A DNA stretch of 64,000 bases from NCBI GenBank assembly GCA_958296185.1, contig CATQIB010000001.1, positions 49,379 to 113,378 of the forward strand, in the 5' to 3' direction. Origin of the DNA: an uncultured Mesonia sp. (GTDB lineage Bacteria; Bacteroidota; Bacteroidia; Flavobacteriales; Flavobacteriaceae). The notes below the pieces were generated by a model. That model was given only the letters and a program-made list of their open reading frames with translations. It was not told where the DNA came from and did not search any database. Below are positions 25,901 through 48,411 of this stretch, in pieces. A program made the position numbers and the translations under genes. Every line of letters starts with the position of its first letter. Within the stretch, counting starts at the first letter, position 1.

Positions 25901-26654
25901 CGACTACGAGCCGTTTAACTATCAGCTAAGAGAACACCGAACTTACTTAAATGATAATAGCCAAGAGCAAGAGTTTATAAAAGTGTATAAATATCCTTAT
26001 AATCTTTTAAGCAATACTGATGGCCAGGGCCTCTACAACAAGCATCGCCTTAATGAGGTATTGGAAGAATATCTGTACAAGGACGGAAAACTTTTATCGG
26101 TACGCAGGAACGAATACTCTGAATTCCCTGTAGGCTCTGGTAATTGGTTTTTAAGTAAAGTGAAAACAGGCAAGTTCTCGGGGAACACCTTAGGCCTCAC
26201 TAAGCAACAGATCCAACAGCAACTGGAGGACAGACTGGAGTACGTGGAATACGATGACCGTGGAAACCCACTGGAGCTTCGCAAAGCGGAAGGACTGCCG
26301 GTAAGCTATATTTGGGGCTACAGCCAAGCCTATCCCGTGGCAAAGATAGAGGGAGCCTCCTTGGGAGAGGTGAAAACGGCATTGGGCATCAACCCTTCAC
26401 AGCCCATAGACCTTGGAGCTTCGGGGCTCACACCCTCACAGGAAAGCGCTTTGCGAAACAATCTGACTGGGGCCCTGATCACCACCTATGATTACAAGCC
26501 CTTGGTAGGTATCACCAAGATTACTGATCCAAGAGGTAAAAAGACTACCTATCATTATGGTAGTTTTAACCGTTTAAAAGAAATCAGGGATGAAAATGGC
26601 AACATCATCGAGGATTACGATTACAATTACCGACCAACAACAATTACCCCCTAA
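22996..26654 (+). CDS. YD/RHS-repeat shell protein A2 (cassette 2), interrupted by a -1 frame change near 25623
   Basis: Own ATG and signal peptide at 22996 (MKLKQIMPIMFLLAAFFSKKSYCQ); the two ORF-track pieces 22678-25716 and 25683-26654 join in the -1 frame to match paralog A3 (44709-48392). Confidence 0.8.
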
Positions 26655-26664
26655 TCAACCAAAG

Positions 26665-29600
26665 ATGAAAAGAACTCTATTTATACCTACAGTGTTGCTA
26701 AGTTTAATTGGTTACGGTCAATCCCTGCCAACCGATTCGGAGAACTACGTACACACCAGAACCTATAAAGTAGAAACCACCACAGGAAATGTAAGCCCTG
26801 ATGAAGTCTTGGAAAATGTCAGTTATTTTGATGGTTTAGGTAGGTTGAAACAAACCGTTGTAAGGGGAGGCAAAGATGGGGACAAAGTAATTATCACTCC
26901 TGTTGTATATGACAGTTATGGTCGGCAGACAAAAGAATACCTGCCTTATGTAAAGCATAGGCCTACCACTACGCTCCTGGGTTATGAGAACAACGATGTG
27001 GTAATCCCCGAACTGGAGACGTATTATATCAACCAGTACCCCAATGAGATTAACCAGACTTCTCCCAACCCATACAGTGAAAAGGTTTTTGAACTATCTC
27101 CACTGAACAGGGTTATGGAACAGGGAGCCCCGGGAACATCTTGGAAGGCAGATGGTGCAAGTGATAATGACCACACCATCAAATTCGGTTACCAGACCAA
27201 CCAATTTGAAGAAGTTGCCTATTTCAAGATGGTTTTTCCCGATCCGCAAAATACCGAAGAACCGAAACTCTTTAGGGACGGTTATTATGCTACGGCACAG
27301 CTCTACAAACAGATTACCAAAGATGAAAACTGGCAACCCAACCAACTATACCCCAATGACCATACTACGCAGGAGTTTACCAACAAGTTGGGACAGGTGG
27401 TGCTCAAACGCACCTTTAATGAAGGTCAAAACCACGATACCTATTACGTCTATGACGATTATGGCAACCTGACCTATGTGCTTCCCCCGGGAAGCTTTTC
27501 AACAACAGATGATGTAATTGTTTATTCAAGACCAGAAGGAGCAATCAACTATCCTTGGACAAGGCTGGTAGAAGTTGATGAAGGATTGGCCGCGGAATAC
27601 GAACACCTTTTGGAGGATTATGACAACGAACAGATCTTGAACGTTGACCTATCTGCTGAATATGGAGGCCAGGGAGGTTTCAGCATTAGCCCTTCGAGCA
27701 ACGGGGAGGAGCTGATTTTCAATATCAACTTTACGGCAACAGAAGCTTTTGCGCTCCAGCAAGGACAATTGGTTTCTTTGGAAGAATTCGGAATATTCAA
27801 CAATACAGAATTAGGCAGGCTCGAAGGAGAGGGCTACAACTATATTTTCACGATTTCGGAAAATAATATCTTAATTAGAGGGGATGGTAAAGTTAACAAT
27901 ATCAACAAGGTTTTCTCTAGCGGGGCAACGTTGGCCTACAGTAAAAATTACCCTTGGGTGGATTATATGAATGTTGAACCAGAGTATGTCGATCAATATT
28001 ATACCGCTTTGGAAGGCTATGAGAATGAAGATATTTTAACGGCTATTGTTCCCAATGAGTATAATGGTCTAGGAGGTTTGAACATCAGTGTAAGTGAAGA
28101 CGATATTGTCACTTTAACGCTTAACAGTAGTTATACGGGTAGCTTTTCGTTAAGAACAGGAGTTGTTATCCCTTTAGAACTAGGTAGAAGTATTGAAGAT
28201 AGGATTTTGGGCACCATTGAAGGGGAAGGTTATGAGTATGTGTTCAGTATTTATGAAAACAACCTTCGCATAGAGGGGGAAGGTGTATTGGTTGGCCATA
28301 GTTATGTTTGGCAGGTTTCAAACCCAATGACCGTATCGCAGACAGATATCTATGACGAACTGATCTATATCTACCACTACGACCATAGGAACAGGCTTAT
28401 CGAGAAGAAAATACCCGGCAAGGGCTGGGAACATATGGTTTACGACAACCAGGATATGCCAGTACTTACCCAGGATGCCAATCTAAGGAGTACCAACGAT
28501 TGGCTGTTCACCAAATATGACAGGTTGGGAAGGGTGGCCTATACCGGAAGCCACCATTACGTTCCGAGCTCAGGCTCTACCGATGAGAACAAGGGCAGGA
28601 AAGAACTACAGGATATACTTGACAACGAAAACTTTACGGACAGGGAAGAAAGAACCACAACGGCAAACACTGTAGCAGGGGCAGGTTCTTTTTATTATAC
28701 CAATACACACTACCCTACTGCCAGTATCGATATCTATACGATTAACTATTACGATAGCTACCTTAACACTGGTGACCCCAATGGCAACATCTTTAGCGTT
28801 CCCACTACGGTAGAGGGTCAGTCCGTCACAACGGCTACACAGGGTTTACCTACGGTCTCCAAGGTAAGGGTCTTGGAGAGCAATCCGCCTCAGTTTATCA
28901 CTGTCCTAACGGCCTATGAGGAAAAGCGTTTGACAGCGGTTTATACCGCTACGGACAATCCTTATCTCGGGACACAGGATGAGATAAAGACCAAGCTGGA
29001 TGAAAATTTTATAGGTAAAGTCAAGTATACAAAGCACGGGCATTCAAAACAAGGAAAAAGCCCTATTACCGTTACGGATAGTTACACCTATGATTATGAG
29101 GGAAAACTAATAGAGCATACCCAAACAGGGCTCCACTCTACTTTGAGCAAGGAAAGATTGGTGCTTAACCACTACGATGAACTGGGGCAATTGACAAATA
29201 AAAAAGTTGGGGGAACCGCTCCGGTACTGTCACAGACAGTGGATGAACTCCAACAAGTAGACTTTAAGTACAACATCAGGGGCTGGTTAAAGAATATAAA
29301 CGACCCTGCCAATCTAGCGAACGACCTGTTTGCCTTTGGTATTGGGTATGACTCGGGACAAAATGCCCTTTATAACGGGAATATCAGCAGTACCAGTTGG
29401 AAGACCGCCACACCTCCAACAGGGCCTGGGTCTTCACCGGTTCCAGCAGATAGAGGCTATAAATACACTTATGATGCTTTGAACCGTATAAAATCTGCGG
29501 ACTACAGTGCGAGCTATACCACAGCCCAGGGAAGTTCTCTGTTGCCAGAAAATTACACCTTGAGCAAAGTCAAATACGACAAAAGGGGGAATATCATAGA

Positions 29601-31161
29601 ATTAGATAGAAAAGGTTTCAATGGATCAACGGCAGGTTATATAGATAAGTTTACATATACTTATATAGACAAGCTCACTTATACTTATAAGGTTAATAGT
29701 AATCTTTTGGAAAGGGTGGATGATATAGCCTCCTCTTTGGAGGGTTATCAGGAAAATATTAGTAACATCGTAGACTTTACCTATGACATCAATGGCAATT
29801 TGATTTCTGATAAGGAAAAAGAGATAACAGAAATAAGTTACAACCATCTCAATTTACCTTTGCGAATAAGTAAAAACAATGATAATGAAGGCTATATCGA
29901 GTATGTATATGATGCCACTGGGGTGAAACTGGAAAAGACAGTAACCGACCTAAGTACTTCTTCGGCATTGAGCACAGCTTATGCAGGTAATTATATCTAT
30001 GAAAACAACGAACTTAAATTTATAAGCCACCCCGAGGGGTATGCGCAACCAAAGGATGCTAGCGACTATGCTCAAGGTTTTGACTATGTTTATCAATATA
30101 AGGACCATTTGGGGAACGTCCGACTGTCCTACAGCGACCTCGATGGAAACGGTAGTATAGACCCGAATACCGAAATCCTTAACGAGAAAAATTATTATCC
30201 ATTTGGGCTTGAACATAAAGGATACAATAATGTCGTCAATGGCGTTGAGAATAACTATAAGCACTATCAAGGACAGGAATGGACAGAAGACCTCGGTTTA
30301 AATGTTCACGAATTTAAATTTAGAATAAGTGACCCAGCCATTGGAAGGTTCTGGCAAGTTGATCCATTAGCTGAAAAATTTGCACATAATGGAGTGTATA
30401 ATTTTTCTGAAAATAGAGTTATTGATGGCATAGAATTAGAAGGTTTAGAGAGGTTAGATTTTAGATATACTTTGGATGACAATGGTTATGCTCAATTTTC
30501 TAGTTTAACTATTGATTTTGAGCAAGACTTTAGCGCAAACTACAATCTAAATGGAAGAAACACTTCTTTTGAAACAATAAGTAAAATTAATGGATGGTCA
30601 GAGAATGACCCTGTCGTGCAGAAAGGGATAGATAAATTGCGTTCTGATAATGCTAGTAATGGAGGTAATTTTTCAGATAATTATTATGCTGAATTTGGAG
30701 GTTTCTTAATAAATAATTCAATACCATCAATGTCAAGTATAAGAAATGATAAAAATTCAATGGGAGCAATAAAAGATGGGGTTAGCAGTGTTACAGGTTT
30801 TTTGGATAATACCACAGGTTTTGGCAATGGTAAAGGAGCTCCTTTATTCCATCTCTACGAAAATATGGTAAGAAAAAATGACGACACTGGTTATGACAAA
30901 TTAATGCATTTTTCATTTACAGCTAAATATGCAACATATGGTGTAGGTTTGTTTATGGGAGAAATGAAAGAATTCTTTAAGGATGAAGTCCCTAGTTGGT
31001 TTGGTAATGATAAAGGTTGGGATAATATGGATATTAAAGCGAATCAGCGAGGTAATAGTTATATGCTAAATATTATTAGACAAATTGGAGCTAATGACCC
31101 AACATCTTTACACAATAGTTCCTTGTTTAATAATAATCTTAATAAAGGAAGAAGATTTTAG
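26665..31161 (+). CDS. DUF6443/RHS-repeat core protein B2 with variable C-terminus (cassette 2)
   Basis: True start likely ATG 26665 (MKRTLFIPTVLLSLIGYGQ signal peptide); same architecture as B1 and B3; C-terminus with 'YDKLMHFSFTAKYATYGVGLFMGEMKEFFKDEVPSWFGNDKGWDNMDIKANQRG'. Confidence 0.88.
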   Translation: MKRTLFIPTVLLSLIGYGQSLPTDSENYVHTRTYKVETTTGNVSPDEVLENVSYFDGLGRLKQTVVRGGKDGDKVIITPVVYDSYGRQTKEYLPYVKHRPTTTLLGYENNDVVIPELETYYINQYPNEINQTSPNPYSEKVFELSPLNRVMEQGAPGTSWKADGASDNDHTIKFGYQTNQFEEVAYFKMVFPDPQNTEEPKLFRDGYYATAQLYKQITKDENWQPNQLYPNDHTTQEFTNKLGQVVLKRTFNEGQNHDTYYVYDDYGNLTYVLPPGSFSTTDDVIVYSRPEGAINYPWTRLVEVDEGLAAEYEHLLEDYDNEQILNVDLSAEYGGQGGFSISPSSNGEELIFNINFTATEAFALQQGQLVSLEEFGIFNNTELGRLEGEGYNYIFTISENNILIRGDGKVNNINKVFSSGATLAYSKNYPWVDYMNVEPEYVDQYYTALEGYENEDILTAIVPNEYNGLGGLNISVSEDDIVTLTLNSSYTGSFSLRTGVVIPLELGRSIEDRILGTIEGEGYEYVFSIYENNLRIEGEGVLVGHSYVWQVSNPMTVSQTDIYDELIYIYHYDHRNRLIEKKIPGKGWEHMVYDNQDMPVLTQDANLRSTNDWLFTKYDRLGRVAYTGSHHYVPSSGSTDENKGRKELQDILDNENFTDREERTTTANTVAGAGSFYYTNTHYPTASIDIYTINYYDSYLNTGDPNGNIFSVPTTVEGQSVTTATQGLPTVSKVRVLESNPPQFITVLTAYEEKRLTAVYTATDNPYLGTQDEIKTKLDENFIGKVKYTKHGHSKQGKSPITVTDSYTYDYEGKLIEHTQTGLHSTLSKERLVLNHYDELGQLTNKKVGGTAPVLSQTVDELQQVDFKYNIRGWLKNINDPANLANDLFAFGIGYDSGQNALYNGNISSTSWKTATPPTGPGSSPVPADRGYKYTYDALNRIKSADYSASYTTAQGSSLLPENYTLSKVKYDKRGNIIELDRKGFNGSTAGYIDKFTYTYIDKLTYTYKVNSNLLERVDDIASSLEGYQENISNIVDFTYDINGNLISDKEKEITEISYNHLNLPLRISKNNDNEGYIEYVYDATGVKLEKTVTDLSTSSALSTAYAGNYIYENNELKFISHPEGYAQPKDASDYAQGFDYVYQYKDHLGNVRLSYSDLDGNGSIDPNTEILNEKNYYPFGLEHKGYNNVVNGVENNYKHYQGQEWTEDLGLNVHEFKFRISDPAIGRFWQVDPLAEKFAHNGVYNFSENRVIDGIELEGLERLDFRYTLDDNGYAQFSSLTIDFEQDFSANYNLNGRNTSFETISKINGWSENDPVVQKGIDKLRSDNASNGGNFSDNYYAEFGGFLINNSIPSMSSIRNDKNSMGAIKDGVSSVTGFLDNTTGFGNGKGAPLFHLYENMVRKNDDTGYDKLMHFSFTAKYATYGVGLFMGEMKEFFKDEVPSWFGNDKGWDNMDIKANQRGNSYMLNIIRQIGANDPTSLHNSSLFNNNLNKGRRF

Positions 31162-33075: not shown

Positions 33076-34307
33076 TGTAGGCTTCCCTTTTTTGGGACAC
33101 CTTAAAGTTCGATAAATAATTATTATTTAAGTTAGATTTGATGAAGAATTTAAATTCTTCATCAAATCTGGGCATATATTCTTTAGGTGATTTATTTCCT
33201 AAGGATTTATGTGGATGGTTAAAATTATAGTCCTCTCTCCAAATTATCGCTTATTTTTTGCAATTGATATTTGTCATTGAAGTAATAGACATCTAATATA
33301 TCTTCTCTAAAGAATCGATTAAAACGTTCGATATATCCGTTTTGCATTGGTTTTCTAGGTTGTGTATATTTAATTTCTATAAAGCTCTTTTGACACCAGT
33401 TCATAAAGGTCTTAGAGATAAATTCTGGTCCGTTATCACATCTTATATATTTTGGTGTGCCTATTTCTTCTTTTAAACGTTCTAATGTATCTACTACAGC
33501 TCTAACTGGATATGATAGTCCTGCTTCAATGGCTAAAGCTTCTCGATTACAATCGTCAATAACGTTAAATACGCGCACCTTTATAACATCGGTAAGTACA
33601 TCACTCATAAAGTCCATACTTCAGCATTCATTGAGCTGCGTAGGTGTTTCCAAAGGTTGTTATACGCGTTTTACTAAACGCTTTTTGTGCTTATTCCTTA
33701 AACTTAGTTTCATATCTCTATAAATGCGAAGCACTCGCTTTCTATTTCATTTTAAGCCTTCACGACGGATTTTATGAAAATACTCATCAAAACCTTTAGT
33801 TAGATAGGATTCCGCAAGCTCTGTGAGTTTATCAATGACTTCGCTGTCATCTTTCTTGCGCTGATAATACCACATTGACCTACTTAAACCTACAACTTTG
33901 CAGGCTCGTACAATGGGCACTGTAAACTCCTTAACAAGTTATTTGACACGAACTCGCTTGTCGGAAGGCTTTAGAACTTTTTTGACAATACGTCCTTCAA
34001 CATCTTATTATCTAAACTCACATCCGCATACTTTTGTTTGAGCCTGTTGTTTTCCTCTTCAAGTTCCTTCAACCTCTTAAGTTGTTGCTGTTCCATACCC
34101 CCATACTTCTTACGCCAATAATAGAATGTACTTTTGTCAATCCCTAATTCGCTTGATAAAACGCCCACAGATCTTCCTTGTTTGTTTTCCTTGAGTACCT
34201 TGATTATCTGACTCTCGCTAAATTTGCTTTTTTTTCATTGTGACAGTTTGAATTTAAAATTAATAAATTAGAATTTATAACTGTCCTGTTTTTTAGGGAT
34301 GCCTACA
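33076..34307 (-). mobile_element. Degraded IS3-family insertion sequence
   Basis: Ends TGTAGGCTTCCCT... / ...AGGGATGCCTACA form imperfect terminal inverted repeats; fragments of OrfA (33971-34168) and DDE integrase OrfB (33225-33617: 'IRCDNGPEFISKTFMNWCQ...YTQPRKPMQNGYIERFNR') broken by frameshifts and stops. Confidence 0.8.
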
Positions 34308-34482: not shown

Positions 34483-34845
34483 TCATTCAAATAAACTATA
34501 TTCTTTTTCTATTCTTTCCGTCAATTCTATGTAATAATTCTTTTTTTCTGTAGTAAGCTTTTGTTCTAGTTGAAATATGTGTTTAACAATTGATAAAAGA
34601 TCATTTTTTTGTTTTAAAACAAATAATTTTCCAACTTGAATATTTAATTGATCACAAATTAAAAGAAGTATTTCCCAATTACTACTATGTTCTGCCCTTT
34701 CAATACGTCCGATAGTGGTAGAAGTGCAATCAGTTAAAAGTGCTAACTCTCCTTGAGATAAGCCTTTTTTTAATCTAGCCAATTTGATAATGCAACCAAT
34801 TTGAAGTCGTATTAGCCTTATCTTAGTTTTATTCACACCACTCAT
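34483..34845 (-). CDS. XRE-family helix-turn-helix regulator
   Basis: 'KLARLKKGLSQGELALLTDCTSTTIGRIERAEHSSNWEILLLICDQLNIQVGKLF'. Confidence 0.88.
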   Translation of the reverse strand: MSGVNKTKIRLIRLQIGCIIKLARLKKGLSQGELALLTDCTSTTIGRIERAEHSSNWEILLLICDQLNIQVGKLFVLKQKNDLLSIVKHIFQLEQKLTTEKKNYYIELTERIEKEYSLFE

Positions 34846-34867
34846 AGCGTAAATGTTGAAAAAAAAA

Positions 34868-34907
34868 TAGTTTTTATTCGATACAAATTTGGGTTGAATA
34901 AAAACTA
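34868..34907. promoter_or_regulatory. Palindromic operator candidate: TAGTTTTTATTC-N16-GAATAAAAACTA
   Basis: Perfect 12-bp inverted repeat upstream of the divergent XRE gene and overlapping the forward promoter. Confidence 0.7.
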
Positions 34908-34919
34908 TTTATATATTTG
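34889..34919 (+). promoter_or_regulatory. Bacteroidetes-consensus promoter TTG-N20-TATATTTG
   Basis: TTG 34889-34891, TATATTTG 34912-34919; matches the flavobacterial TTG/TAnnTTTG consensus. Confidence 0.7.
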
Positions 34920-34983
34920 TTTGAATAACATATATTTGCGATTCTTCTTTAGATAAAATATTAGAAGCATTCGCTTTGAATCT

Positions 34984-35092
34984 CGGATTGAAAACTGGTA
35001 ATTTTTAGACAACGAGAGGATAAGCAAGGATGCTCACGACCCGGGCGTGAGTACTCGCTTATCGTTGTCAGGTATACCAGTACCCCAATCCG
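34984..35092 (+). ncRNA. Candidate structured RNA: extended imperfect hairpin with five nested helices
   Basis: CGGATTG/CAATCCG, ACTGGTA/TACCAGT, GACAAC/GTTGTC, GATAAGC/GCTTATC, CTCACG/CGTGAG nested in order, ~65 nt downstream of the consensus promoter. Confidence 0.55.
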
Positions 35093-35359
35093 GTAAGTAG
35101 AGGCTTACGCCTATTTTTATAGGGTCCTTTTTAAATTTCAAGGCAGATATTTCTATTTTTTAGGTTATGAAGTTCGCTTCACTATACTTAAATGTATACT
35201 AACACCCAAAAGCCTATGAGATAAAAATGAATGTTGAAGTTTTGAGTTACTACACAAAACCATATTATAATGAGTTGGTAAACTTTTGGTTGAAAATTTA
35301 TTTGAAGTAAGAGAATTACTCCTCACAACGCTCTAAATAAAAGTTTGAGTTTACTGCTA

Positions 35360-35400
35360 AAAAAAAGCCCTCCTAAAGCTTTGCACGGCTAGGAAGGCTA
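35360..35400 (-). terminator. Minus-strand rho-independent terminator candidate just upstream of susC-like gene
   Basis: Minus strand: AGCCTTCCTA...TAGGAGGGCT stem followed by TTTTTTTT. Confidence 0.6.
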
Positions 35401-35438: not shown

Positions 35439-38402
35439 ATGAAATTTTATTACACCCCCATTTATGGGTGCAGACTACTTTTGGCCATACTTTTCTTTTT
35501 ATCAGGAAAAGTATGGTCCCAACAAGAATATTCGCTTACAGGTAGTGTTACAGACACTACAGGATTAGCCATTCCTGGCGTACACGTACAACGCTTAGGA
35601 ACCTCAACGGGGAGCACCACAGATTTTGAAGGCAAGTTTAGCATAATGGTAAGCGCTACAGACAGCTTAAAGCTGACCTATTTAGGCTTTAAAACTAGAG
35701 TTCTCCCCGTTAATAATCGTACCCATATTAAGGTACAACTCTATCCTAATGAAGAAACTTTACAAGAGGTTGTCATCAATGCAGGCTATTATACCACCAC
35801 CGAGAGAGAACGTACAGGAAGTATCGCAAAAGTTACTGCAAAAGAAATTGAACTGCAGCCTGTAGTTAGTCCGTTGCAAGCCTTACAAGGTCGAATGGCA
35901 GGGGTAGAAGTAAGCCCAAGAAGTGATCTTCCTGGTGCTGCATCTAAAGTACAAATTCGTGGGCAAAATAGTTTGCGACAAAATGGTAATTTTCCTCTTT
36001 ATATTATTGATGGGATGCCATTTAACTCGACACCTTTAGAAACTAATAGTACCTTAAAGTTTACGGGTATTGACCCCTTGAATACAATGAACCCAGCCGA
36101 TATAGAAAGTATAGAAGTGTTAAAAGGTGCTGATGCTACGGCCATATACGGTTCAAGAGGTGCAAATGGGGTTATTTTAATAACCACCAAAAAAGGAACG
36201 CCAGGTGAAACGATGGTACAAGCACGAGTAAGCTCTGGATTTTCTGAAGTCCCTAACCGAATTGAATTGCTTAATACCGCAGAATATTTGAAAATACGCC
36301 AAAAAGCATTTGAAAACGATGGTATAGTACCTACCGAAAATAATGCTTATGATTTGTTGGTATGGGATCAAAACAGAGAAACCGACTGGCAAGAAAGGTT
36401 TTTTGGTAACCAAGCAGATTTTACCCAAGCCAACCTATCAATCTCAGGAGGAGGGACAACTAGTCGCTACCGTGTTAATGGCTCTTATTTAAACCAAGGG
36501 AGTATTTATCCTGGCGGTGCCAACTACCAAAAAGCCACAGGTAGTGCTCAATTCAATCATTTAAGTAAAGATGATAAACTTTCATTAGATATGGCGTTTA
36601 GTTATGGCGTAGATAATAATCAAACAATTGGTATAAGTGCTATAAATCGTCAAGTGTTCGACTTAGCACCTAACTCCCCAAAAATTTTTAATCTAGACGG
36701 TAGTTTACATTGGGAAGAATGGAGTAAAGTAGGTAAGGAAAATCCATTTCAAGGTTATTTAAATACCAGTGATATTAAAATAAATAATTCACTTGCTAAC
36801 CTAAACCTAAGTTATAGGTTGCTGAAAGGATTAAATTTTTCCGGTAATTTTGGTTATACTCGTGTTAATACTAGTGAATTAACTAAACGCCCAAAAGAGT
36901 CCTATAATCCTTTATACAGGGAATTTATAGACCATGAATCTGCTCATTTACAAGGTGAAAGTGCCTCCTGGGTTATCGAACCTCAACTTTCTTATCAAAA
37001 GAATAAAAATAAATTTGGAATTAAAGCATTACTGGGGGCTACACTACAAGAGCAAATAAACCGTCAAGATGGAGTTACTGGCACTGGCTATGCTACTCGC
37101 TCGATGATCGGGAATCTATCCGCAGCCACAAATTTAACTAGGGGGCTTCATCGAGAAACCAAGTACCGTTACTTGGCATTCTTTAGTCGATTGGGTATAG
37201 ATTGGGATAAAAAAATTTTTATAAACCTCACCGGTAGAAGAGACGGTTCGTCTCGTTTTGGCCCCGATAAACGTTTTGCTAATTTTGGTGCCATAGGAGC
37301 AGCTTGGATTTTCACAGAAGAAAACTGGGTTTCAAAACAAGTACCTTGGCTATCTTTCGGTAAACTACGAGGTAGTTATGGAAGTACCGGAAACGATCAG
37401 ATTGGGGATTATGGTTATTTAGACGCCTATGAAGCCACTCAGGGGCCTGGAGGCCTTTATCCTACCCGTTTAGCCAATCCGTCTTATTCCTGGGAGGTCA
37501 ATAAAAAATTAGAAACAGCGCTTCAGTTAGGTTTTTTAAAAGATCGTTTACAACTCAATGTCAGTTATTATAAAAATCGTTCCTCTAACCAATTGGTGGG
37601 CTATAGTTTGCCTAGTATTACAGGGTTTACTTCTGTACAGGCCAACTTACCTGCTACGGTTGAAAATAGAGGTTGGGAAATAGAAGCACACGCTAAAATT
37701 ATCAACACAAGTGACTGGAAATGGCATAGCTCTTTAAATTTTACCCTGCCTAAAAATGAGTTGGTAAGCTATCCCAATTTAGAACAGTCTCCTTATGCCA
37801 ATAGTTACCGGATTGGGAAACCATTAAATATAGAATTGTTATATCGTTATGAGGGCATTGATCCAAACACAGGTTTTTATCAAATTGCCGATGTTAATGA
37901 AGATGGAAGGCTAGATTACGAAGATAGAGTAATCACAAAAGATAGAAACTCCGAGTTATTTGGAGGATGGCAAAACAGCTTACAATTCAAAAATTTCAAC
38001 CTTCAATTTTTATTTCAATTTGCAAAAAAAGAAGGGGAGTTTGCATTAATTGATGCAGGCCGTGTTGGTGCCCTTCGGCAAGAAGATTATATTGGTTTAG
38101 AGGGTGATAAGTTTCAAACCATATCTACGCAACTCGATGCGATAAGAGGCTATAGTAATTTAATGCAAACCTCTTTCCCTTATACCGATGCTTCATTTAT
38201 ACGTCTTAAATCCTTAGCGTTAGGCTACTCAATTTCTAATAAGCCTCTTCAAAAAATTGGAATAAGGAGCTTTAAGTTATTTGTACAAGGTCAAAACCTT
38301 TTTACTCTTACCCGTTATCGTGGTATGGATCCTGCTATTGGAACAGGTTCTACATTTGGTGTCTTGCGTACACTTACGACCGGCATAGAAATTAACCTTT
38401 AA
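35439..38402 (+). CDS. SusC/RagA-family TonB-linked outer membrane protein
   Basis: Carboxypeptidase-like 'SLTGSVTDTTGLAIPGVHVQRLGTSTGSTTDFEGKF', plug 'LQALQGRMAGVEVSPRSDLPGAASKVQIRGQNSLRQNGNFPLYIIDGMP...IESIEVLKGADATAIYGSRGANGVILITTKKG'. Confidence 0.95.
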   Translation: MKFYYTPIYGCRLLLAILFFLSGKVWSQQEYSLTGSVTDTTGLAIPGVHVQRLGTSTGSTTDFEGKFSIMVSATDSLKLTYLGFKTRVLPVNNRTHIKVQLYPNEETLQEVVINAGYYTTTERERTGSIAKVTAKEIELQPVVSPLQALQGRMAGVEVSPRSDLPGAASKVQIRGQNSLRQNGNFPLYIIDGMPFNSTPLETNSTLKFTGIDPLNTMNPADIESIEVLKGADATAIYGSRGANGVILITTKKGTPGETMVQARVSSGFSEVPNRIELLNTAEYLKIRQKAFENDGIVPTENNAYDLLVWDQNRETDWQERFFGNQADFTQANLSISGGGTTSRYRVNGSYLNQGSIYPGGANYQKATGSAQFNHLSKDDKLSLDMAFSYGVDNNQTIGISAINRQVFDLAPNSPKIFNLDGSLHWEEWSKVGKENPFQGYLNTSDIKINNSLANLNLSYRLLKGLNFSGNFGYTRVNTSELTKRPKESYNPLYREFIDHESAHLQGESASWVIEPQLSYQKNKNKFGIKALLGATLQEQINRQDGVTGTGYATRSMIGNLSAATNLTRGLHRETKYRYLAFFSRLGIDWDKKIFINLTGRRDGSSRFGPDKRFANFGAIGAAWIFTEENWVSKQVPWLSFGKLRGSYGSTGNDQIGDYGYLDAYEATQGPGGLYPTRLANPSYSWEVNKKLETALQLGFLKDRLQLNVSYYKNRSSNQLVGYSLPSITGFTSVQANLPATVENRGWEIEAHAKIINTSDWKWHSSLNFTLPKNELVSYPNLEQSPYANSYRIGKPLNIELLYRYEGIDPNTGFYQIADVNEDGRLDYEDRVITKDRNSELFGGWQNSLQFKNFNLQFLFQFAKKEGEFALIDAGRVGALRQEDYIGLEGDKFQTISTQLDAIRGYSNLMQTSFPYTDASFIRLKSLALGYSISNKPLQKIGIRSFKLFVQGQNLFTLTRYRGMDPAIGTGSTFGVLRTLTTGIEINL

Positions 38403-38412
38403 ACATTAAATT

Positions 38413-39789
38413 ATGAAACTATATAACAAAATAAGTGTTTTACTTATTCTCTGCTTTTTAACTTCATGTGAAGATTTCGTCGAAGTAGATACTCCCAACC
38501 ACCAATTACCTGTTACTATGGTATTCGAAAATCAGGAAACCGCGCGTAGTGCTATGTTGGGCATCTATTATCAGCTTTTTAGAAGTGTAGATTTTAGCAA
38601 TGGTCACAGCAGTAGTGTTACTGCCTTAGCGGGTCTCAGCGCGGGCACCTTAGCTCCTCTAGATGCTACCAACACTGTTTATACAGAGTTTATGCAGCAC
38701 GAAGTATTACCTCAAAATCCTAATAATTTAAAATTATGGTCTAGCGCCTACCAAACCGTTTATATGGTCAATTCATTTTTGGAAGGACTCGAAGCAGCAG
38801 ACAGCCTGCCCGAAGAATTAACTAACCAATTAAGGGGAGAAGCCTTGTTTGTTAGAGGGTTTACCTACTTTTACTTAAGACAGCTATATGGGAAAGCACC
38901 TTTAATTGTTACAAGTGATTACCGTATAAATGCTTCGGCCACCTCTAATACACCAGAAGAAATACTCACTCAAATTCTAGCCGATTTAAAAATAGCAGAG
39001 AGTCTTCTTTCCGATGCTTACTCTCACCAAGAGCGTACCTATGTAAATCGATATGTAGTAAAAGCCTTATTGGCACGTATAGCCCTCTATGAAGAAAACT
39101 GGGAGCTTGCCTTGCAATACAGTAGCGAAGTAATCGCACATACTGCGCTTTACAATTTAGAAGCAAGCTTAAACGACGTGTTTTTGGCCAATAGCCAGGA
39201 AGCCATTTGGCAAATTTCACCATTAGGAGGAGGTAATAGCACTACCAATACCCACGAATGGACAATTTTTTCGTCTACATTTCCTCGATTACGATTAACA
39301 ACTGGTTTTGAAAATAATTTTGAAACAGGAGATTTGCGTAAAGAGTACTGGATAGAGCAGCCAGAAAATTCAACCTATCGTCCTTTTAAATACAAAGCAG
39401 GTAATACAGGTAGTGCTATTACAGAATATTCTATGGTACTTCGTTTAGCAGAGCAGTATTTTATACGAGCAGAGGCACAAGCACAACTAGGCAATATGCC
39501 AGCTGCGATAGCCGATTTAGATCACATTAGAGCAAGAGCAGGGGTTTCTCTAATAGCACAAACACAGCCTAGTATTACTAAGGAAGATTTTTTAATACTG
39601 CTATTAGAAGAGCGCCACAGAGAACTCTTTGCCGAATGGGGGCATCGTTGGTTAGACTTGCGACGTACCCAGAGAGCAGCCGCAACTTTTGGCGATAGTC
39701 CGTTTTGGGAACCTACAGATGAACTGTACCCCATACCAGAGGAAGAACGTATAAAAAACCCCAACTTAACCCAAAACCCTGGTTACTAA
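38413..39789 (+). CDS. SusD/RagB-family lipoprotein
   Basis: Lipobox 'LTSCEDF'; 'RGEALFVRGFTYFYLRQLYGKAPLI'; C-terminal 'ERHRELFAEWGHRWLDLRR...LYPIPEEERIKNPNLTQNPGY'. Confidence 0.95.
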   Translation: MKLYNKISVLLILCFLTSCEDFVEVDTPNHQLPVTMVFENQETARSAMLGIYYQLFRSVDFSNGHSSSVTALAGLSAGTLAPLDATNTVYTEFMQHEVLPQNPNNLKLWSSAYQTVYMVNSFLEGLEAADSLPEELTNQLRGEALFVRGFTYFYLRQLYGKAPLIVTSDYRINASATSNTPEEILTQILADLKIAESLLSDAYSHQERTYVNRYVVKALLARIALYEENWELALQYSSEVIAHTALYNLEASLNDVFLANSQEAIWQISPLGGGNSTTNTHEWTIFSSTFPRLRLTTGFENNFETGDLRKEYWIEQPENSTYRPFKYKAGNTGSAITEYSMVLRLAEQYFIRAEAQAQLGNMPAAIADLDHIRARAGVSLIAQTQPSITKEDFLILLLEERHRELFAEWGHRWLDLRRTQRAAATFGDSPFWEPTDELYPIPEEERIKNPNLTQNPGY

Positions 39790-42644
39790 TGAAAATAAAA
39801 CATAACCACCTAAAAAGCTTTTGCTTCATACTTCTAGCAGTTTTATATTTTGCTAGTTATGGTCAAGCTCCAGCAACTATAAAAGACTTATCTTTAGATC
39901 CAAGCATTATACACGGGCAACTCTCTAATGGCTTAACCTATTACATTAAGCCTTTAAAAGAAAGTACATCTGATGTTAAAATGAGTTTATGGGTAAAAGC
40001 AGGAATAATGCAACAAGGAGTAAACCAACCTGATCTCGCTCATTTTTTAGAGCATATGGCCTTTAAATCCAGCACCCATTTTCCTGAAGGATTAAAAGTA
40101 GATAGTTTACGTTTAACCAAAGCAGGCATCCGAAATTTAAGGGATGTTAACGCAGCCAGCGGGTATTACAGCACTAATTACCAATTCCCCGTCGCATCGA
40201 GCAATCCCGAAGGAATCCACACGGCTTTATTATGGTTTAAAGATATTGCACATGGCTTAAAACTTACCGATGAAGATATTGAGAATGAACGGGGGGTATT
40301 GCTACAAGAATTTAATACACGGGTGCAAAATTTGGCTGCGCATCGGGCCAAATCAAAGATGCTGCAACACGTTAATCCCTGTTTTTCCTCTTCAGAAAAT
40401 TTCTTCGACTACAATGCCCATTTTCCTGCAACAGAATTACGGGAGTTTTATGCCACTTGGTACCGTCCTGATTTGATGGCAATAGGTGTGGTGGGAAATA
40501 TAGAAAATTCTGAAGAGCTCAAGGCAAAAATCGAACGAATGTTTGGAGGTATCCCCATGCCTAAAAACCCAAAACCACTCCCTGAATGTGAGTTGACGGG
40601 GCAACCCACCTCTTGGGTTAACATCACTCAAGGAGAAAAAGAGATTACACAAGTCAAAAACAACCGAAATCGATTATATTTAGGTTTTAGAGATTCATCT
40701 ACCCAAGAAAAAATACATCGTCTTGAAGGACTAAAACAACTTTTCCTTTGGCAATCCACGACACAACTTTTGCAAAACCGCTTGAATAAATTACAGCAGT
40801 CTTATGACATTCATTTTAATTTTTTAAATAAGCACACCTACCGGTCACAAGTCGTTATGAGTTTTAAAGCGCATAATGTTTTGATTGATTTTGAAGTAGG
40901 ATACGGGGAAAAAGCTTTAGAGACCTTTATAAGTTATTTACATCAATTGAAAGAATTCGGAGTGCATCCAGAGGAATGGTCAGAAGTGGTAAAAAATCAA
41001 AATCTTATTCTTGATTCCCAAGACACCACTAGTACGAACTATTGGTCGCAAGAAATTTACCGGCATTATGTAACAGGAGAAGCCTTACCTGCCCAGAAAA
41101 AAACTTTATTAAAACAATGGTGGAATGAGATGAGTGTCACCCAATTCAATCAAGAACTTAAAAAATTAATCCAATTGGTACCAGAAGACATAGCCGTGAT
41201 TGCCACAAAAGGAAGTGAAGCGGCCAATTATACGGAAGTGCAGGTAAGAAATCTAATTGATAAAACGCTTCAAAAGCCTGTCAAACCTTACCTGCCAGAA
41301 AAATGGAACCAGTCTTTGTTGAGCAGCGAGATGATCGCCTCTTTGACGTCTCAAAAAATCAAAGCGAAAGGAACGACCAAAAGTGGTGGTAAACGATTTT
41401 CCTTAAAGAATGGCGCACAATTGATTTTCCATAAAGATACCACTGCCCGTTATAAAAACGGTAAAGTAGAAATTATGGGTTTTAATCCGTGGGGTAGTCA
41501 TTGTTTTCCATACCCCGTTAACTATGCCGCACAAAATGCGGCAAATATAGTACTTCAATCGGGCATGAGTGCTTGGGATAAATTTGATCTCGAACAATTT
41601 ATGGAACAGCAGCCCCAACCCTTTACCATCGCACCCTATATCGAAGCGGAGGAATCAGGTATTGCAGGTAAAGCTTCGATAGAAACTTTAGAAAAATGGT
41701 TTCAAATGATGTATCTTTATATGACTCAACCCCGTTATGACACCAAGGCATTTCATTATTGGAAACGGCAGAAAAAGATAGTATATTTTCAATCTCCCTA
41801 TGACGTCTCTTTTTTAAACTTTAAAAATCGGGTAGATGAACTTATGGGTCGAAATACTTATGCGAATGTAGGAGAACAATTATGGACCGGTGTTAAAAAG
41901 ACAGATTTAGACACCGCCTACCGAAGCTATCAGCAGCTCTTCGGGCAGACCCATGATTTTACTTTTGTGGTGAGGGGAAATATAGAAGAGTCTGCGTTAC
42001 TTTCCCTAGCTCAAAAATATATAGGTAACCTACCGCAGAGTAATTCTAAATTTAAATGCCAACCTAGGCTAAAGCAAAAAAACAAAGCACAAAAGCACCC
42101 TGTACTCAATAATATAGGCGACACGATAATTAATTCAGAGAAGACTCAATATTTAATACGTTATATATTGACCGATATTCCACCAAATAGCCAAGAGTAT
42201 TTAGGCTTACAGATGCTTAGCCGAATATTAGGGGAACGTCTCATGAACTTGCGCTACGAGGAGAATTTTTCTATCTATGGGGTGAATGCTAGTTTTAACC
42301 CGCCATCTAAATCCCATGCCTATGATTTTTCATTTCATATGGGCTGTAAGGCCAAAGAACTGCCATTGATACGAAAAGAAGCAAAAAAAATAATAGAGAA
42401 TATAAAATTGGGAAATATAGATAAAGAGGAGTTTAAAGCTGCCCAATCCTATGTCATAAGTTTGGCTTCAGGCTCCCTGTCAACCCAAAATCGACTCTTA
42501 GCTTATTATAAAGGGCATAGCCCTTGGGTTAACTTAGAAAGCATAAAATTAACTGTAAACGCTATTACTCCAAAATTACTTAAAAACCTAGCAAAACGAT
42601 ATATAAGGGACGAATGCCTGTACGAATTTGCAACTTATGAGTAG
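39789..42644 (+). CDS. M16-family (pitrilysin/insulinase-like) zinc metalloprotease
   Basis: 'LAHFLEHMAFKSSTHFPEG' (HxxEH motif: HFLEH); C-terminal partner domain; signal peptide. Confidence 0.93.
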   Translation: MKIKHNHLKSFCFILLAVLYFASYGQAPATIKDLSLDPSIIHGQLSNGLTYYIKPLKESTSDVKMSLWVKAGIMQQGVNQPDLAHFLEHMAFKSSTHFPEGLKVDSLRLTKAGIRNLRDVNAASGYYSTNYQFPVASSNPEGIHTALLWFKDIAHGLKLTDEDIENERGVLLQEFNTRVQNLAAHRAKSKMLQHVNPCFSSSENFFDYNAHFPATELREFYATWYRPDLMAIGVVGNIENSEELKAKIERMFGGIPMPKNPKPLPECELTGQPTSWVNITQGEKEITQVKNNRNRLYLGFRDSSTQEKIHRLEGLKQLFLWQSTTQLLQNRLNKLQQSYDIHFNFLNKHTYRSQVVMSFKAHNVLIDFEVGYGEKALETFISYLHQLKEFGVHPEEWSEVVKNQNLILDSQDTTSTNYWSQEIYRHYVTGEALPAQKKTLLKQWWNEMSVTQFNQELKKLIQLVPEDIAVIATKGSEAANYTEVQVRNLIDKTLQKPVKPYLPEKWNQSLLSSEMIASLTSQKIKAKGTTKSGGKRFSLKNGAQLIFHKDTTARYKNGKVEIMGFNPWGSHCFPYPVNYAAQNAANIVLQSGMSAWDKFDLEQFMEQQPQPFTIAPYIEAEESGIAGKASIETLEKWFQMMYLYMTQPRYDTKAFHYWKRQKKIVYFQSPYDVSFLNFKNRVDELMGRNTYANVGEQLWTGVKKTDLDTAYRSYQQLFGQTHDFTFVVRGNIEESALLSLAQKYIGNLPQSNSKFKCQPRLKQKNKAQKHPVLNNIGDTIINSEKTQYLIRYILTDIPPNSQEYLGLQMLSRILGERLMNLRYEENFSIYGVNASFNPPSKSHAYDFSFHMGCKAKELPLIRKEAKKIIENIKLGNIDKEEFKAAQSYVISLASGSLSTQNRLLAYYKGHSPWVNLESIKLTVNAITPKLLKNLAKRYIRDECLYEFATYE

Positions 42645-44484: not shown

Positions 44485-44708
44485 TATGATAGAGACGATT
44501 AGCAGTTGCGTTTCTCTGGGATTATTTGGGATATTCTAAATCTTCTGTTTGCTTAAAAATGCCCTTAGAGCACTACAAACTAATTTTTTTTAGTTGTATG
44601 TTTTTCAATTTGTAAATAGATAAAAAAATATTTTCATCTGTATTATTTTTAGTAAGTTTTGTAGATATTATGAATATTTTATTTATTTGCAGTTAAATTT
44701 TGAAAAAA

Positions 44709-47700
44709 ATGAAAAATTACTTAGTAGCCTTGATTGTTCTAGTTTTGTTTGAAACGAGTTTTGCACAAGGGCAAGGAGGGGGTATGGAGTTTGATAAAGT
44801 ATTGGGGCCTTCGCCTACAGTGCAATCCTTTGCGACTTTTCAAGAAGTTCCAGTGAATAATTATACGGGGATACCAGATATTAAAATACCGCTTTTTGAA
44901 ACAGAAACTTTAGGGAGTCAGCGTAAATTTACGTTGGCATTAAGGTATCATCCTTCTAATGTTAAGGTTGAGCAGGTGCCTGGTTGGGAGGGTTTTGGTT
45001 GGTCCCTAATGGCTGGCGGCGCTATATATAAATCTGTTTCAGGGGATGACGATGAGAATTATGTAAACAGTAAAGGTATGTATGGCGTTGAGAATCCGTT
45101 TGAGGAAGAATTTTTTGACTCATACGACCAATTTATTTATAATATTTTGAATTTTACAGATGATAGAATTAAACAAAGAAATAAGTATTTGTATGATGTT
45201 ACTTATTTAAATAAATACGACACAAGCTATGATCTATATAGCCTTAATTATGGCAGTTTGAGTGCTAAATTTTATATAAAAAAGCCCGGTGGAGTGCATA
45301 ACTATGACTATCAAATTGAATATCTCAGTAATGACAATAGAATAAAGATAAGTGTTATATCAGAACTTATTGGGGGCGCTCCGTATATAAAAGGCTTCGT
45401 GGTAACAGATGATAATGGTTTTGTTTACACTTTCGATCAAAAGGAAAAAACTGAGGTTATTACCGAAACTCAAACTATAAATTTTGTTCACGAGCCTCCT
45501 AATATGTCTAATTCATACGATACTTATTCAAGTGCATTCTGGGTGAGTGAGGTAAAGGATCCGCAAGGCAATGTTTTAATTGATTTCGATTATAATACCA
45601 TACTAGAAGAATATAAAAAAAATAATTTCATTCAATATATTTCGGAAGACCATCCTTATTGTACACCTATTGATAGCTTTGCTGTTTATACCGGATTGAT
45701 GCCTTATAATGTTTCTAATACCCTTTATACAAAGGTTACATCGCAAAAACTTTCCAAAATTGATGTAAAAGGCAAGTGTAAAGTGTATTTTACTACAGAA
45801 ACGGGTAGGATGGATATGGAAAATCCTAATGTTGCTGTGAGATTATCTCAAATTAATATAAAGAATTATGAAAATGAAACTATACAAGAAATAGAACTGG
45901 GACATTCTTACCGATCTCAAGCGCAGAGGCTCATTTTGGAAAAGGTAAGATTTTTTGATAAAAATCAGGAGTTGTCAAAAAAATATGAATTGAATTATAA
46001 TAAAATAGATCAGTTGCCTGCTTTTGACTCAAAAGAAAAAGACTTGTGGGGCTTTTATAATGGACCCAATGCTTCTGGAACGGCGCATAACTTTTTGCCT
46101 GACGAAAAATACTCAACGGTTGGTTTGCTTAATAAAATGGTTATTCCGACAGGGGGAGCCTATATTTTTGATTTCGAAAGTAATGATTATGCATTTGTAG
46201 CTAGCACCATGCTAGATGATTTTTTGAATCGCGAAAACGAACAAGAGATGGTTAAGAGTTTAAACTATAAAGGTTTTCAAGATGAATCGAATACTAATGT
46301 GGAAATTTTTTATATTTCTAACGATCAAGATGTGGTTTTTGATTTAGAAGCACTTAGTTTTAATCCAAATAGTTTAATAGATAAGGCCTTTTGGAGTTTT
46401 GATATTAGGCCTGTTAAGATTGATGAAAGTCAAGCAAATATTGATAATTATTTGCCCGGTCCATTTCAATTGTCATCAATCAATGAAAATTTCTTGTTAG
46501 ACGATATTTATTCAGGGGTGCTTCCAGGTGGGCGCTTTTTGAAAAAAATGAATTTAAGTAATTCACAGAATTTTCCGTCCGGGGTATCGCAGCACAATAT
46601 CTTTTTTTTGAAAAAAGGCTTTTATGCGATCAAGTTTTATCAAGATCCTGAGCAAACTATAGCCACAAACGGGGTAGAGTATAATTTGGAATATAAATTT
46701 ACAGCTAACACTAACCAATACAAGTACAACGTTGGCGGAGGTAATAGAATTAAGAGTATAGGTTATTTCGCAAATGCTGGCGTCTCTCCAAATTTTTTTA
46801 ATGATCGTGAATCGTATAGTTTAAATTACAAGCCCAAAGTAGAGGTTAATTTTAACTATAGGAGTTTTGAAGACGGGTCTATGTCTAGTGGTGGGGTAGT
46901 TTCAATACCTAGAAACAGTTATCCTATTAAAAATAATTATCTTTTTGAGATTCCTAGTAAATTTTTAAAGGATAGGCGTTCTCATGAATTTTTAGTGCTC
47001 GGTGATTATAACCTTATAGGCGGACTTCAAACCCAAGGTAGTTATGTGGGTTATAAAAATGTCGAGGTTAGTAAAGTAGTTACGGAACAAGAGGTTTTTA
47101 ATTCATTTGATATAGTTTTGCATAAATATAAAAATGGTGTTGTTGAGTATACCTATAGTTCACCGATAGATGTTCCTTATTATATTAACATAAATTATCC
47201 TTTTGTCAATGAACCTTATCCTCACTTTAAAACCGCAAATTTGTTGAAACAAGTTACAAAGGATCGTGCTAACAGAATACAGGTTGAAGAGAATTATGAA
47301 TATAATTACACTTTCAACGAAAAAATTTATGGTATAAAGTCTTATTATGTAAACGGCGGCTGTGAATTTTTTAGTAAAACTATTGGATTTGGATCTTATT
47401 ACAATGAATACTTAAGAGGTTTAGAGTCTGGACATCCTCAAAATACCTGTGGTTATCCACTATTTTTACGAATAATTGATTTTATGCCGATTAAATATAA
47501 ATACGGAAGAGCTGATTTAGTAACTAAGAAGACACGTAATTTTTTCTATAATGAAATCAATAGTGGTCTGCAGGATACGGTTACTACTACTACGTCCTTT
47601 ACCTATCACCCTTTTAATTATCAAATGAAGGAAAAGAAAAATTTCGTTACCAAAGAAGGAAAATCAATCGAAATACGGGAGGTGTATGATTATCCAAGTA

Positions 47701-48392
47701 GACAAGACCCAGAGTATTATTCGGTAGATTTATTCAATCAGCACAGGTTGAATGAAGTCTTATCGGTGAGAACTTATAAAAATGATACTTTGTTATCGGT
47801 AAGAAAGAATAGGTTTGGTTATCCTATTTGTGGCTTAGGACAAGTGATTACTGCTGAAGGTCAGCAAGATAGTTCGAGTACGGGTGCTGCTGGTTTATTT
47901 CTTAAGTCAGTTGAGCTTGGTAAATACAATCTGGCTAGTGACGAAATTACATCAGCTTTAATTGAAGCAGGGCTAGAGGAGCGACTATCTTATGATTGTT
48001 ATGATCAATTTGGTAATCCGTTACAGATCCATAAACCAAATGGAGTCTCTATTTGTTATATCTGGGGTTATAATAATTCATATCCAGTAGCTAAGGTAGA
48101 GAATGCAACCTATGCCGAGATTGAATCTGTCTTAGGTAATGACTTTGATTTGGGAAATAATGGACTTAGTGGGACACAAGAGAGTGATCTTCGCAATGCA
48201 TTAGTTTTTAAAGATGCAATGATTACTACGTTTGATTATGAACCGTTAGTAGGGGTAATTAGACAGACGGATTACCGGGGTTACACCATTTATTATAAAT
48301 ACGATTCACAAAATCGTCTTAAATATATTCAGGACACTAATGGTAATGTTTTGAAATCTTTTGATTATAACTACCGTACAGTATCGAAATAA
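44709..48392 (+). CDS. YD/RHS-repeat shell protein A3 (cassette 3)
   Basis: Close paralog of A2 ('PSPTVQSFATFQEVPVNNYTGIPDIKIPLFETETL...LRYHPSNVKVEQVPGWEGFGWSL'), signal peptide, C-terminal YD repeats. Confidence 0.88.
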   Translation: MKNYLVALIVLVLFETSFAQGQGGGMEFDKVLGPSPTVQSFATFQEVPVNNYTGIPDIKIPLFETETLGSQRKFTLALRYHPSNVKVEQVPGWEGFGWSLMAGGAIYKSVSGDDDENYVNSKGMYGVENPFEEEFFDSYDQFIYNILNFTDDRIKQRNKYLYDVTYLNKYDTSYDLYSLNYGSLSAKFYIKKPGGVHNYDYQIEYLSNDNRIKISVISELIGGAPYIKGFVVTDDNGFVYTFDQKEKTEVITETQTINFVHEPPNMSNSYDTYSSAFWVSEVKDPQGNVLIDFDYNTILEEYKKNNFIQYISEDHPYCTPIDSFAVYTGLMPYNVSNTLYTKVTSQKLSKIDVKGKCKVYFTTETGRMDMENPNVAVRLSQINIKNYENETIQEIELGHSYRSQAQRLILEKVRFFDKNQELSKKYELNYNKIDQLPAFDSKEKDLWGFYNGPNASGTAHNFLPDEKYSTVGLLNKMVIPTGGAYIFDFESNDYAFVASTMLDDFLNRENEQEMVKSLNYKGFQDESNTNVEIFYISNDQDVVFDLEALSFNPNSLIDKAFWSFDIRPVKIDESQANIDNYLPGPFQLSSINENFLLDDIYSGVLPGGRFLKKMNLSNSQNFPSGVSQHNIFFLKKGFYAIKFYQDPEQTIATNGVEYNLEYKFTANTNQYKYNVGGGNRIKSIGYFANAGVSPNFFNDRESYSLNYKPKVEVNFNYRSFEDGSMSSGGVVSIPRNSYPIKNNYLFEIPSKFLKDRRSHEFLVLGDYNLIGGLQTQGSYVGYKNVEVSKVVTEQEVFNSFDIVLHKYKNGVVEYTYSSPIDVPYYININYPFVNEPYPHFKTANLLKQVTKDRANRIQVEENYEYNYTFNEKIYGIKSYYVNGGCEFFSKTIGFGSYYNEYLRGLESGHPQNTCGYPLFLRIIDFMPIKYKYGRADLVTKKTRNFFYNEINSGLQDTVTTTTSFTYHPFNYQMKEKKNFVTKEGKSIEIREVYDYPSRQDPEYYSVDLFNQHRLNEVLSVRTYKNDTLLSVRKNRFGYPICGLGQVITAEGQQDSSSTGAAGLFLKSVELGKYNLASDEITSALIEAGLEERLSYDCYDQFGNPLQIHKPNGVSICYIWGYNNSYPVAKVENATYAEIESVLGNDFDLGNNGLSGTQESDLRNALVFKDAMITTFDYEPLVGVIRQTDYRGYTIYYKYDSQNRLKYIQDTNGNVLKSFDYNYRTVSK

Positions 48393-48411
48393 ACTATAAC
48401 AGAGAGTAATT

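Follow-up and report, generated by a model that had tools for sequence, protein, structure and literature searches.

The extended hairpin at 34984-35092 of the window (the whole 64,000-nt stretch of DNA analysed here) is, judged by sequence comparison, one member of a Bacteroidota-wide RNA family of ~175 nt that has no Rfam match. Our reading, to which we assign a probability of about 0.68 as a whole, is that it is a cis-acting 5' leader of the susC-susD-M16 operon that carries a conditional terminator, and that in relatives the same element is the target of a nuclease-dead Cas12f (dCas12f)-sigma system. A literature search, whose reach did not extend to the dCas12f-sigma publication itself, found no published description of the RNA family, which is apparently previously undescribed.

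The hairpin, its promoter and its neighbors

All five nested helices of the original prediction (CGGATTG/CAATCCG, ACTGGTA/TACCAGT, GACAAC/GTTGTC, GATAAGC/GCTTATC and CTCACG/CGTGAG, with loop ACCCGGG) were found in the sequence, and the fold beat its shuffles both as RNA (34970-35125, -54.4 kcal/mol where the shuffles averaged -37.7, z -4.22, with 0 of 200 shuffles equal or better) and as DNA (z = -5.14). The interval held no credible ORFs, as had been claimed, and the expected promoter lay 65 nt upstream of the hairpin (TTTG at 34888, N20, TATATTTG at 34912-34919). At the gathering score Rfam 15 gave 0 matches within the window, and at permissive thresholds the leader drew only chance-level Rfam matches (E up to 10). 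The promoter region and the flanking genes are laid out thus:

34483..34845, - strand: divergent XRE/Cro-CI-type HTH regulator gene, 120 aa (ORF; Pfam HTH_3, E 1e-7)
34865..34910, no strand: palindrome overlapping the -33 box (23-nt arms, 87% complementary)
34888..34919, + strand: Bacteroidota-type promoter TTTG-N20-TATATTTG (from sequence; box conserved in the alignment)
34931..34938, + strand: further TATATTTG box, better conserved than the first, which in most loci lies ~60 nt 5' of the core (TAnnTTTG clusters at -63..-56)
35439..38402, + strand: SusC-type TonB-dependent receptor, first gene of the operon (Pfam Plug, E 3.5e-21; CarbopepD_reg_2)
38413..39789, + strand: SusD-type lipoprotein (Pfam SusD_RagB, E 2e-25)
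39789..42644, + strand: M16 peptidase (Pfam Peptidase_M16_C, E 2e-31)

A small divergent ORF stands 90-190 nt upstream in about half of the family's loci (87), and 61 of the 87 match HTH_3. Over these loci palindromes exceed those of shuffled sequence (P = 1e-6), the palindrome differing from locus to locus; that of the window recurs, as TATTCGATACAAATTTGTATTGAATA or a near-match, at L009, L031, L039 and L091. The palindrome is likely the operator of the XRE protein, and its presence together with the gene arrangement suggests that the window promoter probably answers to the divergent regulator.

Some further features of the region were noted. Near the XRE gene an ORF (33225-33617) resembles, by eye, a fragment of an IS3-type integrase core, and large RHS/YD-repeat-like proteins (26590-31161 and 44700-52872, also by eye) flank the region. 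Between the leader and susC, at 35360-35400, the hairpin AGCC.TCCTA/TAGGA.GGCT, preceded by an A-run, is terminator-like for the minus strand.

Two conserved folds compete for one strand

The hairpin had been held too long for a terminator and devoid of a T-run, a view that did not survive inspection of its 3' side: 35093-35111 is complementary to the apical 3' arm of the five-helix rod (35044-35062), and T-rich sequence follows at 35112-35120. The small AGGC-TTAC-GCCT hairpin proposed for this place belongs to the 3' half of the terminator, and as a local hairpin it is lacking in most homologues. The elements of the two folds, all on the + strand, are:

34965..34976, +: 5' hairpin P0 (AAGC/GCTT), from inspected alignments, P0 having no score of its own
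34981..34985, +: D1 5' strand UCUCG, pairing with CGAGA at 35013-35017, a pseudoknot to the rod (covariants TCTTG/CAAGA and GTCCC/GGGAC)
34984..34990, +: P1 5' strand, pairing with 35086-35092 (double changes at 7 of 7 pairs)
34991..35005, +: hairpin A, AAAA at 34991-34994 with UUUU at 35002-35005, loop 34995-35001 (overlaps the P2 5' strand)
34994..35000, +: P2 5' strand ACUGGUA, pairing with 35075-35081 (covariation in divergent members)
35008..35013, +: P3 5' strand, pairing with 35064-35069 (swap test, 157 loci)
35019..35024, +: P4 5' strand GAUAAG, pairing with 35058-35063, incompatible with the terminator fold (rod covariation)
35032..35054, +: P5 apical hairpin, incompatible with the terminator fold (rod covariation)
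35044..35062, +: strand B, GGCGTGAGTACTCGCTTAT, 5' half of the terminator (RNAalifold fold; guide matches)
35071..35084, +: hairpin H (GGUA/UACC), its loop UACCAG being the P2 3' strand (double changes GGUA/UACC to GGCA/UGCC; more covariants in divergent members)
35093..35111, +: strand C, GTAAGTAGAGGCTTACGCC, 3' half of the terminator (covariation of the alternative fold)
35112..35120, +: U-tract, TATTTTTAT (T count after the stem, 147 of 157 loci)

Covariation was scored on an alignment of 42 homologues against a shuffle control that treats the sequences as unrelated. With relatedness thus ignored, the rod had 136 double-change cells versus 49.9 in the shuffles, and in the same alignment the signal was lost when partner strands were slid against each other. 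RNAalifold, applied to the 42 homologues, favored a second fold that is mutually exclusive with the rod. There, strand B (GGCGUGGGCUC.CUUAU) pairs with the tail AUAAG..GAG...CCACGCC, with the U-tract directly 3', a hairpin GGYA[UACCAG]URCC sits within the terminator loop, and the 5' side has UCUCG paired to CGAGA. This terminator fold had 42 double-change cells versus 9.3 expected from shuffles that again ignore relatedness, both-side changes at 13 of its 28 pairs, and 95.6% of its cells paired.

An alignment-free swap test, exchanging 3' strands among 157 loci, backed P1 and P3 very strongly (longest helix 7.9 bp with the own partner versus 3.9 bp with swapped ones for P1, and 8.1 bp versus 5.1 bp for P3) and the remaining helices clearly, D1 too pairing better with its own strand than with swapped partners. 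P2 (ACUGGUA/UACCAGU) had appeared unvarying, an artefact of its invariance in close relatives and of a search pattern that itself demanded it; divergent members found only by the covariance model carry compensated variants, namely CUUAGGAA/UUCCUAAG, CUGGACA/UGUCCAG, CUGCCA/UGGCAG and others. The stems flanking P2 (GAAA..UUUC and GGNN..NNCC) covary by eye. Among homologues P1, P2 and P3 covary, and so does the second fold.

Both folds claim strand B, in exclusive ways, and their mean predicted energies are nearly equal (-47.8 kcal/mol for the rod versus -48.9 for the 5' domain plus terminator). In 147 of the 157 loci T fills four or more of the seven positions that follow the terminator stem. 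Sequence and covariation together thus describe an arrangement typical of a transcription-attenuating leader, an intrinsic terminator with its U-tract competing with a second conserved fold. The core can also be drawn as a four-way junction whose hairpins A and H have complementary loops, a model taken from inspection and not computed.

Distribution of the family

The window's own genome has three copies, the second at 79% identity to the first and the third divergent (L172, G000:C15:37112-37285, where P2 is CUUAGGAA/UUCCUAAG and a 69-aa ORF lies just downstream); L242, in the congener G014, is near-identical to L172. By BLAST, 22 of 100 relatives carry the element, a single genome having as many as six copies; a covariance model built from the family found it in 23 of 60 relatives and in 37 of 297 genomes sampled from the whole phylum. 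A pattern scan gave at least 119 stretches, nearly all of them from Bacteroidota, and matched 11 viral contigs, 10 of which are real members by inspection; a DNA search of phage and plasmid records returned one weak plasmid match only. Throughout the relatives and the phylum genomes the copies are isolated, none standing in arrays.

Several groups of copies have settings of their own. Bacteroidales-type copies lie ~80 nt upstream of RibD/DHFR-like genes (L061, L067, L088, L101, L102, L116, L123, L149, L176 and L177), one of them in a MAG labelled Pelotomaculum and several preceded by a small HTH-like gene with a resemblance to conjugative-element proteins. In Mucilaginibacter (L060 and L084) the RNA is upstream of what are probably two RteC-family genes, possibly in conjugative elements. 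Members in MAGs labelled Lentisphaerae and Pelotomaculum (L043, L052 and L101) may reflect binning errors.

Position relative to downstream genes

Taking the nearest ORF of at least 110 aa as the downstream neighbor, we found it on the same strand as the RNA at 130 loci versus on the opposite strand at 10, while upstream neighbors divided 69:73 and the same-strand share among neighboring ORFs in these loci was 76%. Of 118 loci, 100 have a TAnnTTTG box 5' of the RNA and 5 have one between the U-tract and the gene, where shuffling predicts 12.4. In many divergent members the start codon comes 17-60 nt past the matched RNA. The element is thus 5' of the gene that it would control, nearly always on the same strand and rarely with a promoter in between, an arrangement for which a 5' leader that acts in cis and carries a conditional terminator is the most likely explanation. 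A cis-regulatory leader of the susC operon had been one of three guesses in the original prediction, and co-directional genes, promoter depletion and short spacing make it the best supported of them.

The downstream genes (n = 127) include 46 of SusC type (Plug domain), 11 sigma factors, 8 RibD_C and 7 response regulators, among others; TlpA-like, RteC and small secreted proteins are further types. Genes under a riboswitch usually belong to one pathway; the controlled genes here share no common function and so point to no particular ligand. A AACTTCACTTTGGGACTGGG-like string follows the U-tract ahead of small secreted-protein genes at L104, L137, L146, L175, L179, L182 and L193.

Guides of dCas12f carry the sequence of strand B

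About a dozen elements are followed by an ECF sigma gene, and wherever the gene after that was examined it encodes a protein of ~364 aa. One of these, when tested, matched PDB 9n9c 'Nuclease-deactivated Cas12f' (E 8e-162), and the other neighbors align to that protein. Among the 60 relatives, 11 gave dCas12f matches (fragments in two or three cases), and every one of the 11 is among the 23 element carriers (Fisher P = 4e-6); the element often lies directly ahead of the ECF-sigma-dCas12f operon. Downstream of dCas12f there is a conserved scaffold, GAGGGTGCTTG...CAAC, with a guide after it; the scaffold was found in 10 of the 60 relatives, each with a dCas12f match. The linked guides have the sequence of strand B: GCGTGGGCTCTCTTAT, GCGTGGGTTCTCTTATCTAT, GGCGTGGGTTCT and similar (GGCGTGGGYTC...). 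Of 398 genomes of the order, 23 have the scaffold, and almost all of these carry one or more B-type guides; a reversed-pattern control gave none. Guide arrays at L286, L302, L303 and L304 also hold other guides (AAAAGCCTTCCCC, TGAGCGGTTTTC and AGAGCTCCTC).

The dCas12f-sigma complex recognises a 5'-G TAM, and transcription starts at a fixed distance downstream of it. Placed on the window, the site used in relatives would be:

35044 (TAM G) and 35045..35062 (matched bases), +: dCas12f guide site within strand B, in relatives (guide matches)

A guide match next to a G at the TAM position known for the system was found in the relatives G003, G004, G005, G014 and G077. A guide of G014 matches the element before a SusC gene (L026) at 16 of 16 bases, and the guide of G005 tracks its own element (L030) into bases absent from most other copies. 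Over ten genomes, every exact match of TAM plus target, GGCGTGGGYTCTCTTAT, was at an element, and one-mismatch matches were at elements or guides. Many guides have C at the position of the target's TAM G, which would avoid self-targeting. Since guides carry strand B, the leaders look like the main DNA targets of RNA-guided transcription, and the matches suggest that in relatives the element is a DNA target of the dCas12f-ECF sigma system. As a dCas12f guide RNA the element was ruled out, the scaffold being unrelated to it and downstream of dCas12f. A strand B guide is also complementary to strand C, so that guide action at the RNA level is conceivable; guides whose sequence tracks that of strand B weaken masking of strand C in the nascent RNA as an explanation.

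The guide of the congener G014, GGCGTGAGTATTCGCTTAC, fits strand B of the window with 1 mismatch in 18 nt. Neither dCas12f nor the guide scaffold was detected in the window's own genome, whose assembly is ~90% complete, so that loss of dCas12f and its absence from the assembly look alike. As far as can be seen, the dCas12f part of our reading does not apply to this genome.

Alternative explanations

The element might instead be an independent, constitutively terminated sRNA gene that acts in trans, with the XRE protein as its regulator and the operon using a start site of its own. A promoter of its own and a conserved terminator-like 3' end would fit this, as would the typical distance of 240-500 nt to the start of the next gene in the divergent-XRE loci, and dedicated dCas12f-sigma initiation in some species means that susC need not rely on read-through. 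A simple terminated sRNA would have no need of the conserved competing antiterminator fold, however, and the 130:10 co-directionality, the depletion of promoter boxes between RNA and gene and the many members so close to a start codon also tell against it. We consider this explanation unlikely. The sRNA guess of the original prediction thus loses ground as to a purely trans-acting role, with a possible exception in three phage contigs (L157, L159 and L160) that have no co-directional downstream gene; a convergent XRE-type gene stands after the RNA there, which departs from the chromosomal order.

The conserved DNA might on the other hand serve mainly as an RNA-guided promoter site for dCas12f, its RNA folds being by-products or relics. 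In its favor, 23 genomes of the order have guides matching strand B, and exact matches to the target occur nowhere but at elements; yet the family is present in many genomes without dCas12f (12 of the 23 element-bearing relatives, Bacteroidales and phages), and P1, P2 and P3, which lie outside the target, are kept by covariation. We regard this account as quite improbable. Least credible of all is the remaining guess, a folded ssDNA recombination site or mobile palindrome (attC-like or MITE-like). A patchy, multi-copy distribution, a strong DNA fold and copies in phage and ICE-like contexts would suit it. Against it, the copies are not identical ones at unrelated loci but divergent, with compensatory helix changes between them that include G-U pairs and so point to RNA; the second RNA fold is conserved as well, and the strand and position bias relative to genes is strong. 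On the compensatory changes and the lack of integron-type cassette arrays we reject a mobile palindrome or attC site.

Proposed mechanism and relation to known systems

As a conditional leader, the RNA would be transcribed from a promoter that is probably under the divergent XRE regulator. In the rod fold (P1-P5, in which hairpins A and H may kiss via their complementary loops) the U-tract strand would be left free and polymerase would run into susC; alternatively, strands B and C would pair as an intrinsic terminator. We infer that the balance between the two folds is regulated and that the predicted termination really occurs. In strains with dCas12f-sigma, initiation downstream of strand B would yield a transcript without the 5' half of the terminator, which should therefore read into the operon, the dCas12f operon included. 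In the window's own genome, where dCas12f is not detectable, the element is expected to work as an XRE-controlled leader. More tentatively, and with an appreciable minority chance of being right, the leader may be an ancient, phylum-wide bistable one that governs many unrelated Bacteroidota operons by its conditional terminator; dCas12f-sigma would then have evolved to activate just these operons, having copied one terminator arm into its guide, and initiation beyond that arm would escape termination (RNA-guided terminator bypass).

The dCas12f-sigmaE system is reportedly described, as a system of RNA-guided transcription, in the publication behind PDB 9n9c and its sister entries. The relatives share with it a 364-365-aa nuclease-dead Cas12f beside an ECF sigma gene, the type of guide RNA linked to it, and the apparent targeting of SusC-type operons; the present element differs in being the target side, a structured leader RNA far more widely spread than dCas12f and here without it. 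Like attenuators and riboswitch leaders, it is a 5' leader with two exclusive conserved folds and a GC stem followed by a U-tract; unlike them, the family has no known ligand, no Rfam match, very diverse downstream genes and a four-way-junction-like core with complementary loops, and no leader peptide was seen. The PUL-associated sRNAs of Bacteroides are cis-encoded antisense RNAs. Both they and the present RNA lie near Bacteroidota susC genes, whereas the latter is on the sense strand and upstream of susC. PMC9723704 cites them (its ref. 62) as cis-encoded small RNAs. Rfp18 of Flavobacterium psychrophilum, compared by its description only, is likewise a structured conserved flavobacterial RNA and differs as an sRNA acting on protease mRNAs (PMC9723704).

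An apparently undescribed, widespread structured leader RNA is thereby added to Bacteroidota, where few RNA switches are known. For dCas12f it would provide a unifying address: one guide could switch on every element-bearing operon, SusCD operons and the dCas12f operon included. It also becomes possible to test which signal the leader responds to across the phylum, and by what route natural CRISPR activation reaches its regulon.
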